DNA from: Planctomycetota bacterium
Lineage (GTDB): Bacteria > Planctomycetota > JAJSAM01 > JAJVHW01
Length of the DNA stretch: 64,000 bases
Direction of reading: 5' to 3'
Assembly: GCA_024280885.1 (NCBI GenBank)
Contig: JAJRPF010000039.1
Coordinates: forward strand, 1 to 64,000
Below are positions 39,631 to 44,595 of the stretch, in pieces. Made by a program: the position numbers and the translations under genes. The first letter of the stretch is position 1, and each line of letters starts with the position of its first letter. The notes beneath the pieces are model-generated. The model was given only the letters and a program-made list of their open reading frames with translations. It was not told the origin of the DNA and ran no database searches.

Positions 39631-39743
39631 CCGCTGTCGGGAAGACCAACCCCGGTCAACGTGCCGAGAAAATGACTTTTCCCGAACTGAACCTCCGCCT
39701 CATGCGTCCATTTCATGTGGAGGGTGCGCGCGCCATCCGGCGC

Positions 39744-39808
39744 GGTACAGGTCAGCGGTACAGGTCAGCGGTACAGGTCAGCGGTGCGGGTCAGCAGTGC
39801 AGATCAGT
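39744..39808. repeat. 13-bp tandem repeat (about 5 units)
   Basis: Three perfect GGTACAGGTCAGC units (39744-39782) are followed by GGTGCGGGTCAGC and a degenerate AGTGCAGATCAGT. It lies 50 bp upstream of the secreted-protein operon at 39859 and could influence its expression or be a slippage product. Confidence 0.9.
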
Positions 39809-39858
39809 GCAATGGTCGTTCTGCGATCACCGGCGTCGAGCGGCAGAGGAGTGCGGAC

Positions 39859-41499
39859 ATGTGGGGAAGAGGGACCTCGAGGATGGCTGCGCACGTCGCA
39901 TCCGTCGCGGTATTCGCTGTTGCGCTCTCGATCAGCGCGACCCCGGCCGACGCCGGGACGCACAAGGACGAGAAGCTCGGCTACTCGGTGATCTACCCCA
40001 AGAAGTGGGAGATCATGCCGGTCGCCAAGGGTAAGAACCACCTCGTCGCGCGCTTTCAGTGCAACCGTGAGTTCCAGAACACCGACGTGAACACGAGCTT
40101 CTGGACAACACACCGCCCACGACTCGACGTCGTCGTGATCCCGCTGACCGACAAGGACACGCGCGGCGCGAAGGTGAAGAAGACCGACAAGGGTGTCGAG
40201 GTCGTCAACGACAAGCTCTATCGCGATCTCAAGGAGTACCTCGACGCCACGTGGCGCCGCGAGGGCGGCTTCCACTTCTCCGAGGAAAAGGACCTCACGA
40301 TTAACGGCGTCGAGGTCGTTGCCTACGAACTCACGATCGACAAGAACATCACCATCCCAAAGCGGGTCTGGGCCTATGCGTACTACGCCGACGACGCGAT
40401 TTACGGGTTCATCGGCGACGCCCTCATCCCTCACGAGGACAAGGTCAAGAAGAGTATTCTGTCGGCGCTCAAGTCCGTGAAGCTCTTCCCACGCACCGGC
40501 ACACTCGAGGGTGTTGAGCGCACCGGCGCCGACGTCATGATCGACGACGAGAACGAGACGAAGGACATGACGTCCGAGGAGATCGCCGAGCGCCGCGACG
40601 AGTAGTTCGACCGGCAACGCCGACGGATCGTTGACGCACTCGCGAAGGATTGGACCGTCAAGGACACGCCCCAGTTCACGATCGTCTCGCACGCCGACTC
40701 GCGCTACACGAAGGACGTGCTCCGCCACTGTCAGGTGTTCCGAAAGTGGCTCGACGCCCGGCTCGGCTACATCGGCACCGGCCACATCGGCAAGGTGCTG
40801 ATCAGGATCTGCGCCAGTCGCGATGAGTACAGCGCCTATCAGGACTCCCGCGGTTGGTTCGGGCGGGGGTTCGAGATCGTCACATACAAGGACAACGAGG
40901 GCTGGCTTGACTCGAATTGGTCGACACTGAACCGCGGCATCTACGACCAGTGGATGGACGACAAGAACAAGAGTCTGCGACAGGCCGCGCCGCGCTGGAT
41001 CAGCAGCGGTCTTCCGAACTTCCTCGCGAACGCCCGCAGCAAGGGCAAGAAGATCGAGTTCAAGGCAGACCTCTGGGACAAGTCCCAGGTCAGCACACTG
41101 CGTCGTGAAGACAAGCTGCTGCCGGCCGACGCGTTCTTCGGCCTGACGTCCGACGAGATCTTCGCCGACTGGAACAACATGACGCAGGCGCAGTTCTTCA
41201 TCCACTATCTGCTCGTCGGTCCCGGTTCGAAGTCGGGGAAGTACAAGAACGTGTTCGGCAACTACCTCAAGAACATGATCTTCCTGCTCGACGAAGCCGA
41301 AGACGACGACGAGTACGCGAAGCTTCTCGAGGAGACGCCGAAGACCGAGGAGGAGGAGAGTGCACTCTTCCGCAAACGCCAGGAGTTCTGGAAGAACCGT
41401 GAGCAGCAGTTTCTCGAATCGCTGCAAGAGCGCACGTTCGAGGGCTGGTCGGACAAGGATTGGAGACGCTTCAACGCATCGTACTGGAAGGAACTGTAG
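39859..41499 (+). pseudogene. Secreted PsbP-like / degenerate peptidase-MA-like protein split by in-frame TAG
   Basis: ATG 39859 (AGAGGAG upstream) opens a signal peptide (VASVAVFAVALSISATPADA) and a domain resembling PsbP/DUF1795-type proteins (EKLGYSVIYPKKWEIMPVA). The frame hits TAG at 40603-40605 (codon 249) and then stays open for 297 codons to 41499. The downstream part has no ribosome site; its first available start (GTG 40717) lies inside the domain. It looks like a peptidase-MA domain without zinc ligands: LNRGIYDQWM stands where LHEANHYLTD stands in the next gene, and APRWISSGLPNFLANA matches FQYPHWINEAMAEYWASA. The intact product would be 546 aa. A nonsense mutation, sequencing error or read-through are all possible. 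The next gene starts 4 bp after the final stop. Confidence 0.8.
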
Positions 41500-41503
41500 C
41501 GCC

Positions 41504-43063
41504 GTGCGCGGGACGACCTCCCTCGCCCTGGCGGCGACGCTTCTCCTGACCGCGACCGCGACGGCGCGGGCGGGCGACATCCTGCAGCTCAGGGACGGAC
41601 GCTTCGTCGAAGGCGTTCCGCTCGAGATCGATGGCGATCACATCGTGCTGAAGTACGAGAGCGTACCCGTGCGCATTCCGCTCGATCGCGTCGAGGACTA
41701 CTCCATCGAGGGCGCGGAACCACCCGAGGCGAAGACGGACGAGGAGCGCGAGAAGCGCGCGTCGGGTCTGGTCCGGTTCAACCGTCGCTGGGTCACGGCG
41801 AAGCAGCGCCTGGCCCTGATCAAGAAGAAGCGCGACGCGCATCGCGCCGAGATGGAAGACCTACGCGCGCATCAAGAGTGGCGCAATCGCTATCGGTTCT
41901 CGACCAAGCACTTCGAATTCGAGTCCACTCTCCCGCCGTCATTGAACGAGAAGTACTCGAAGCTCCTCGAGGCGTACTTCGCGAAGTTCAAGAAGGTGTG
42001 GAAGACGAAGGTCCCGAAGGAATGGGGCAAGCTGAAGGTCTGCTTTTATCACGACCGCGACACGTTCGAGCGGACGGCGGGTGTCTCCGGCGGCGTCCAG
42101 GCGTACTACCGGTTCGTCGAGCCGCGCGAGTTGAACTTCTTCTACGACGTGCTTGCGCCCGACGACACGATCGGAGCGATGCTGCACGAGGCGAACCACT
42201 ACCTCACCGACCTCCTCAGCGACGACTTCCAGTACCCGCACTGGATCAACGAGGCGATGGCCGAGTATTGGGCATCAGCGCGCTGGGACCCCGACACGAA
42301 GAAGTGGCAGATCGGCGGCGTTCAGGAAGGCCGCCTGGTCGAGCTGAAATCGGATCTCGACAAGCAGGAGTGGTACGGGCTCCGGTACCTACTCAGCAAC
42401 GAATCGAATAACTACAAGCACTACTACTGGGGCTGGTCGTTCGTGCATTTCATGCTCGAGACGAAGAAGTACGAGAAGCGTTTCCGGGACTTCTTCACGG
42501 CTCTCTCGCGCGCGAAGGGCGTGGAGCGCAAGCGCGGTAGTAACAACTTCAAGCGCGTGTCCGGCGAAGAGAGCCTGCGCCTCTTTCTCCAGCGGATGAA
42601 GCTGAAGGAGTCCGATCTTCCGGCGCTGGAAGACGAGTGGCGCGCGTACATCGACGGCCAGAAATCCACGGGCCCGCGCGGGCTCGGCAAGGCCGGGATC
42701 TCGGCATTTCGGAGCAATCGCCGACTGCGCGCGAAGCGGCTGCTCGGCGAGGCAATCGCCGCGGGCAGTGACGACGTGGTCGTACATCTTCGCTATGCAC
42801 AGCTCCTGCGCGCTGATCCGGGCGGACTCGCCGAGTCCGAGAAGCTACTTCGACGAGCGTCCGAGTTGGCACCGCTCACCGCACGCGTCTGGGCCGAACT
42901 CGGCTACACGATCTATCTGCAGAAGCGCGTGGAGGAGGGGAAGAAGTACGTGGCGCTCGCGCGCGAGATGGACCCGGACGATCCGTACCTGCTCATCGAG
43001 ATCCACGATGCACTCGTGGAGCACGCGGAAGAGCGAGCGAAGAAGAAGGCCGGTGGCGAGTGA
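41504..43063 (+). CDS. Secreted DUF1570/peptidase-MA-like metallopeptidase with TPR tail
   Basis: A 519-aa exported protein starting at GTG 41504 (signal peptide GTTSLALAATLLLTATATARA). An early beta domain (GDILQLRDGRFVEGVPLEID) is followed by a gluzincin-like peptidase domain. The zinc motif is MLHEANHYLTD near residue 228 (HExxH), and the downstream WINEAMAEYWASA supplies the third ligand glutamate, the pattern of the DUF1570/peptidase MA group. The last 130 residues form TPR-like helices (HLRYAQLLRADPGGLAESEKLL; ARVWAELGYTIYLQKRVEEG). It is translationally coupled to the HEAT gene (GTGA overlap). Its substrate is unknown. Confidence 0.8.
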   Translation: MRGTTSLALAATLLLTATATARAGDILQLRDGRFVEGVPLEIDGDHIVLKYESVPVRIPLDRVEDYSIEGAEPPEAKTDEEREKRASGLVRFNRRWVTAKQRLALIKKKRDAHRAEMEDLRAHQEWRNRYRFSTKHFEFESTLPPSLNEKYSKLLEAYFAKFKKVWKTKVPKEWGKLKVCFYHDRDTFERTAGVSGGVQAYYRFVEPRELNFFYDVLAPDDTIGAMLHEANHYLTDLLSDDFQYPHWINEAMAEYWASARWDPDTKKWQIGGVQEGRLVELKSDLDKQEWYGLRYLLSNESNNYKHYYWGWSFVHFMLETKKYEKRFRDFFTALSRAKGVERKRGSNNFKRVSGEESLRLFLQRMKLKESDLPALEDEWRAYIDGQKSTGPRGLGKAGISAFRSNRRLRAKRLLGEAIAAGSDDVVVHLRYAQLLRADPGGLAESEKLLRRASELAPLTARVWAELGYTIYLQKRVEEGKKYVALAREMDPDDPYLLIEIHDALVEHAEERAKKKAGGE

Positions 43064-44595
43064 GAGCCGCGGCGCTCAGCCTGGTCGCCCTCGCGGCTCT
43101 CTTCGTCACACCGACGCCGCGCATCCTCACAACGACGGCTCTCGCCGCTGACGACGCGCTCGCGGAGATCGAACGTCTTGCCGACGAGGGCGAGAAGTGG
43201 TTCCGCGAGGCCGGCGACACCGACGCACCCAATGCCGATCGCAAGAAGGCCCGCAAGGAGGCGTACGCCCGACTCAAGAAGGCGCGCACGCTGCTCGACG
43301 ATCTTCTCGACGCGGATCAGAGCCGCGTCGAGGAACTCGACTCGCTCTACTCGCGCATCACGATGATGCTCTTCTGGGTGAAGAAGGAAGCGGCGATCGG
43401 GGAGCTCGAGGGCGGCGGCCCCGTCATCCGTTCGGGACCGTCCGGCAAATCACCATCCGGGAAGTCCACCGGCGGAGAGAAGAAGAGCGGCATCGGCGGC
43501 GCCACGCGCGCTTCTGGTGACTCAGGAGCGAAGCCCGCGGAGAACGGCGGTGGCACAGGTGCGGGAGAGAGCGCGGCGCCTCCCGAGAACGCAGCGCCCG
43601 CGGCTCCGGCTGGCCCGACGCCCGCGGAAGAACTCGCGGAGATCACGTCCTACGAGTCCGCTCATCCCGGCGACGTCCCCGGGTTGCACGATCTGTACAC
43701 GGCCTTCCTCGCAGCGCATCCGGACCCTGCCTTGGCGGAGTACGGCACCGCGCTCACGAAACGCGAGGCGCTCGACCGCAAGCTGAAGGACGTCTACCGC
43801 ACGCTGCGCGACGACGATCCCGCAGAGCTCGCGGAGCAGGGCGACGCCGCGATCGGCCCCCTCGTCGCGCAACTCGTCGAGGACTTGCAGCCGGGTCACG
43901 ATCAGGCGGTGCGCATCCGCGCCGCGGACTACCTGGGTTCGCTCGGATCGACGATCGCGGTCAAGCCGTTGCTCGCGATCCTCCGCGAAGAGAAGGGCGG
44001 CGTGATCGCCGACAGCTGTGCCGAGGCGCTGGCAGCCATCGGCGGCCGCGTCACGTGCAATCGCTTGATCCGCATGCGGGCGGACGAGTTCATGCAGGGC
44101 TACGTCGTCGAGATCCTCGGGACCGTGGTGCGGCGGGGCGGCCCGGAAGGGCGCATCGCGGGCGAGAACCTCGCCGAGTATGTATTGACGCGCGACGCAT
44201 CACTGCAGGCGGGCGCCGTCGAGTCGCTGCACGAAGCCGGCAGTGCCGGTGCGCTCGGCCTGGCGATGCTCGTGCACACGGCACCGGCAGCAACACGCGC
44301 AGACCTGATCCTGCATCTCGGCAAGCAGGGCGATCCACGTACCGCCGGCTATCTCGCACACTTCATGAAAGCCGGCGTGAGCGGCGTCGAGAAGAAGCAC
44401 GCGCGCGCCGCCCGCCGCGCCATCGAGTCATTCGGCAAGCCCTGCGTGAAGTACCTGATCCCGGCGCTCGACGAAGAGGACTCGGCCGTGTGGACCGCCG
44501 AGATGCTGCGTCGCCTTACGGGCGCGAAGCCGAAGAACGACAAGCGCAAGACCTGGGCGCGCTGGTACGGCAAGCATCGCCGCGAGTTCAAGTAG
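43060..44595 (+). CDS. Secreted HEAT-repeat protein
   Basis: A 511-aa protein with a signal peptide (MRAAALSLVALAALF). A helical segment with a coiled-coil-like stretch is followed by a Gly/Ser/Pro-rich linker (residues 125-190) and a C-terminal run of HEAT-like repeats, for example AVRIRAADYLGSLGSTIAVKPLLAILREE, CAEALAAIGGRV and PCVKYLIPALDEEDSAVWTAEMLRRLTG. HEAT arrays generally bind proteins, so this is probably a scaffold. The GTG at 43060 overlaps the stop of the metallopeptidase, which makes joint expression likely. No enzyme motif is present. Confidence 0.78.
   Translation: MRAAALSLVALAALFVTPTPRILTTTALAADDALAEIERLADEGEKWFREAGDTDAPNADRKKARKEAYARLKKARTLLDDLLDADQSRVEELDSLYSRITMMLFWVKKEAAIGELEGGGPVIRSGPSGKSPSGKSTGGEKKSGIGGATRASGDSGAKPAENGGGTGAGESAAPPENAAPAAPAGPTPAEELAEITSYESAHPGDVPGLHDLYTAFLAAHPDPALAEYGTALTKREALDRKLKDVYRTLRDDDPAELAEQGDAAIGPLVAQLVEDLQPGHDQAVRIRAADYLGSLGSTIAVKPLLAILREEKGGVIADSCAEALAAIGGRVTCNRLIRMRADEFMQGYVVEILGTVVRRGGPEGRIAGENLAEYVLTRDASLQAGAVESLHEAGSAGALGLAMLVHTAPAATRADLILHLGKQGDPRTAGYLAHFMKAGVSGVEKKHARAARRAIESFGKPCVKYLIPALDEEDSAVWTAEMLRRLTGAKPKNDKRKTWARWYGKHRREFK

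Follow-up and report, generated by a model that had tools for sequence, protein, structure and literature searches.

In the 64,000 nt stretch of Planctomycetota DNA analyzed here (the window), a reading frame that opens at ATG 39859 on the forward strand meets a TAG at 40603–40605 and then continues with 297 sense codons up to a second TAG at 41497–41499 (Table 1). The preliminary description regarded this as a single gene that an in-frame TAG divides in two, and it gave the 297 sense codons and a first GTG 37 codons past the stop. Both of these are seen in the sequence, and the split gene is borne out by coding signal before and after the stop and by continuous homologues. ATG 39883 is a likelier start than ATG 39859, judging from the alignment of relatives and from the signal peptide. 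GAGG is present upstream of ATG 39883, and a signal-peptide-like stretch, MAAHVASVAVFAVALSISATPADA, starts there. Beyond the TAG at 41497–41499 the in-frame sequence is not protein-like. Just upstream of the split gene, at positions 39740–39810, imperfect short direct repeats of the GGTCAGCGGTACA type are seen by eye.

Table 1. Features of the split gene and its downstream partner, with positions in the window
Feature	Position	Strand	Basis
N-terminal half with signal peptide and PsbP-fold domain; 240 aa, likely translated	39883..40602	+	Translation, homologues, AlphaFold/Foldseek
Premature in-frame TAG, in the helix opening the C-terminal domain	40603..40605	+	Sequence; sense codon in 11 alignable homologous frames, gap in the twelfth
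C-terminal half with gluzincin/DUF1570-like domain lacking HExxH; open frame, probably untranslated	40606..41496	+	Homology, profile match, weak structural matches
First in-frame GTG past the stop, not credible as a start	40717..40719	+	AAGGA 1 nt upstream
Natural terminator, also TAG	41497..41499	+	Aligns with the TGA of the nearest homologue
Partner gene downstream: HExxH-containing DUF1570 peptidase	41504..43063	+	Pfam PF07607; gene order in five other genomes

The third-position GC content is 0.879 on the N-terminal side of TAG 40603 and 0.862 on the C-terminal side. The in-frame codon score is 0.45 ahead of the stop and 0.40 past it, and the other two forward frames score negative. Since the coding signal past the stop is as strong as that ahead of it, the open frame after the stop represents more than chance. 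One contig of 139 kb was scanned for stops flanked on either side by strong coding signal, which gives three sites including TAG 40603. The other two, identified by eye, are ordinary gene pairs (gmk-like/rpoZ-like and SpoIIE-like phosphatase/MazG-like), and the split gene is the sole interrupted gene found on this contig. An antisense open frame of 600 aa (positions 39778–41580, minus strand) covers the whole split gene. It is rejected as a true gene in that its codon score is near zero, compared with 0.40–0.45 for the plus frame, and the homology is on the plus strand; codon statistics show it to be a by-product of high third-position GC.

The N-terminal and C-terminal halves were searched separately in 59 genomes. 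Twelve homologous frames from 10 other genomes span the TAG site and all twelve are uninterrupted. None of the 11 frames that can be aligned at the site has a stop there, and the twelfth has a gap. The nearest relative, G004, belongs to the same family and shows 58% identity over the whole length. Alignment of both halves to homologues, as proposed earlier, always gives one continuous gene, which confirms that the two halves are one ancestral gene interrupted by the TAG. The halves might otherwise be read as separate genes, the second expressed from GTG 40717 or by re-initiation past the stop; the stop is near a domain boundary and an in-frame GTG is found downstream. However, each homologue found is one gene, and as all 12 frames are unbroken across the site, the halves are not separate genes. 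The residues of the 11 relatives at the TAG position are G, A, A, L, R, E, L, R, Q, A and Q, and with this variation the ancestral codon is not readable from them. There is no second copy of the split gene in its own genome when this is searched with both halves. The one same-genus genome examined has no homologue of the split gene and only a weak match to the neighbor gene, so that the locus looks dispensable. A search of genome contigs with a single sequence gave no match; with an alignment, three Planctomycetota contigs were obtained, with nothing beyond genomes G002, G004 and G005.

An AlphaFold model of the full frame, with the TAG read as Q for folding only, displays two domains and has a mean pLDDT of 79.9. 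The N-terminal domain resembles PsbP structures (Foldseek E value 4.8e-8, TM 0.72 by target length). The likeness to PsbP/CyanoP (PF01789; PDB 2xb3 and 2vu4) is in the predicted fold: the best structural matches have 13–17% identity, and the Pfam PsbP family matches one homologue, the best, weakly and below the cut-off (17.1 bits compared with 23.5). In contrast to PsbP/CyanoP, the domain is joined here to a second domain, and a tie to photosystem II would be hypothetical.

The C-terminal domain has a pLDDT of 88.6 when folded alone. Its structural matches are all weak and are to three gluzincins: a Vibrio collagenase unit (E value 0.027), an M61 aminopeptidase and leukotriene A4 hydrolase. 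A profile of the C-terminal half aligns to the DUF1570 domain encoded by the following gene with an E value of 4.6e-5 and a probability of 68%. The resemblance to DUF1570 (PF07607) and gluzincin (MA clan) peptidases is thus found in this alignment and, weakly, in the collagenase, M1-type and M61 structures. In the alignment, neither the C-terminal half nor its homologues contain the HExxH zinc motif, i.e., the family examined here differs from these peptidases in being without HExxH throughout, whereas the neighboring DUF1570 gene has kept the motif. These sequence and model properties suggest that the C-terminal domain is a pseudo-peptidase.

The DUF1570 gene starts 4 nt past the split gene and matches PF07607 with 25.5 bits (cut-off 22). 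A homologue of the split gene is adjacent to a DUF1570 gene in genomes G004, G002, G005, G006 and G007. The presence of the DUF1570 gene next to an intact PsbP-fold/pseudo-peptidase gene in these five relatives suggests an exported pair, a peptidase and a putative pseudo-peptidase. An apparent internal TGA in the DUF1570 neighbor gene of G002 turned out to be its natural terminator. The DUF1570 protein in the window has C-terminal TPR-like repeats. It is followed by a HEAT-repeat protein (positions 43060–44595, plus strand), which has three paralogues elsewhere in the genome, and this order is kept in G004.

When counted from ATG 39883, the TAG is residue 241. In the structure model it is inside a helix (residues 231–252) that opens the C-terminal domain, in agreement with the earlier proposal that one continuous charged helix crosses the TAG. 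Based on the model, termination here should leave the PsbP-fold domain whole, and the second domain would be lost because there is no usable start between the two domains. GTG 40717 is the first in-frame start past the TAG, but its AAGGA is too close to provide a properly spaced ribosome site. A product from this GTG would have no signal peptide and, in the structure model, would be without the first helix and two strands of the C-terminal domain. With poor spacing, no signal peptide and a cut domain fold, separate expression is not credible, and the reading of the halves as two genes can be virtually dismissed.

TAG is used as an ordinary stop in this genome. The 87 coding-like frames on the contig end in TGA (52), TAG (33) and TAA (2); TAG also separates gmk from rpoZ, and it ends the split gene itself, where G004 has TGA. 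Release factor 1 (prfA) is present above its family cut-off. All anticodons were read in the 45 Rfam tRNA matches in the genome and none is CUA, although at 91.5% completeness, in 74 contigs, a suppressor tRNA could be in the missing part. The best match to PylS is 20.7 bits, compared with a cut-off of 178.15. The preliminary description had judged genome-wide recoding unlikely from the use of TAG elsewhere, and the search for suppressor tRNA genes that it suggested agrees with this. Within the limit set by 91.5% completeness, neither UAG reassignment nor pyrrolysine decoding is supported, genome-wide amber recoding is rejected, and TAG 40603 gives no support to amber recoding in this Planctomycetota lineage. 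A weak tRNA-like match of 34.7 bits (L085 98–180; G000:C56:226118–226197), read by ARAGORN as tRNA-Ala with anticodon AGC, is probably spurious or degenerate. An RNA element past the stop was also considered and rejected: no unusual RNA structure is found after TAG 40603 (z = 0.44) and the window has no Rfam match.

The C-terminal half shows no decay. Branch lengths, estimated with the topology fixed, are 0.295 for the C-terminal half compared with 0.386 in G004, and 0.433 for the N-terminal half compared with 0.314 in G004. The C-terminal half retains all 19 residues that are invariant in six other homologues, and it contains no second stop or frameshift; under neutral drift, each 1% of divergence would be expected to add about 0.4 stops. 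Relaxed constraint past the stop, a sign of a nonsense-mutation pseudogene, is not seen as an acceleration of the C-terminal branch; a very recent mutation, or a TAG that is not real, would be expected to leave none. With the C-terminal half unaccelerated and free of other lesions, the TAG is either very young or absent from the organism, unless read-through maintains selection. The TAG is either a nonsense mutation of very recent date, which may be a strain polymorphism, or an assembly consensus error, and these two leave an identical trace in the assembled sequence. Both recent nonsense mutations and spurious stops have been reported in surveys of bacterial genomes (PMC7918605; PMC11017572).

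The most likely explanation is an ordinary event rather than a new decoding mechanism. We consider it probable that a single recent point mutation put an amber stop in an otherwise intact gene and is either fixed or segregating as a strain polymorphism. The 12 of 12 continuous homologues, the lack of a second copy in the genome and the C-terminal half without decay support this. Bacterial nonsense-mutation pseudogenes and in-frame stop polymorphisms (Belinky et al. 2021, PMC7918605) likewise have one in-frame TAG in an intact, constrained gene; in the main cases of that study, however, the stop is common to two or more species, whereas TAG 40603 is in a single genome only.

A consensus error, i.e., a base-calling error or a minority-strain base picked by the assembler, with the organism's own gene intact, is a possible alternative of lower probability. 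The gene looks constrained apart from the in-frame stop, its sole lesion; the assembly is an incomplete draft, and some of the relatives are metagenome-assembled genomes. Public genomes that are almost identical disagree, on average, in 8.2% of their internal-stop pseudogenes, and such pseudogenes are inflated by low coverage (Cooley and Wright 2024, PMC11017572). The spurious stops in that study are likewise isolated, in frame and in draft assemblies, but TAG 40603 is known here from one assembled consensus alone. On the other hand, errors are not widespread in the assembly, since the scan of 139 kb detected no further interrupted gene.

Read-through of the amber stop at a useful rate, with some full-length protein beside the short form, is unlikely. 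The downstream frame is intact and constrained, and many in-frame stops of bacteria have been argued to remain under purifying selection (Belinky et al., PMC7918605). However, the stop is present in none of the relatives, the decoding components described above are those of ordinary termination, and the sequence past the stop has no unusual structure. Because the residue varies, the site does not call for a special amino acid. A recent mutation explains the intact frame equally well. Of the three options offered in the preliminary description, mutation and sequencing error both stand and read-through is now the least likely. A related proposal is that the young stop near the domain boundary acts as a dosage switch, giving mostly the secreted PsbP-fold domain and a small full-length fraction by near-cognate read-through; this is speculative and its probability is slighter still.

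If, as the favored recent mutation implies, the base is real in the organism, release factor 1 would end translation at TAG 40603. Only the PsbP-fold domain, some 240 aa long, would then be made and exported, without the putative pseudo-peptidase domain, and translation of the coupled downstream DUF1570 gene may drop by polarity. The stop also calls for caution in annotation, as a gene caller would give a short secreted protein and a second fragment with a wrong start. In the relatives, the locus that a gene caller would split here encodes a single protein of two domains beside a DUF1570 peptidase.
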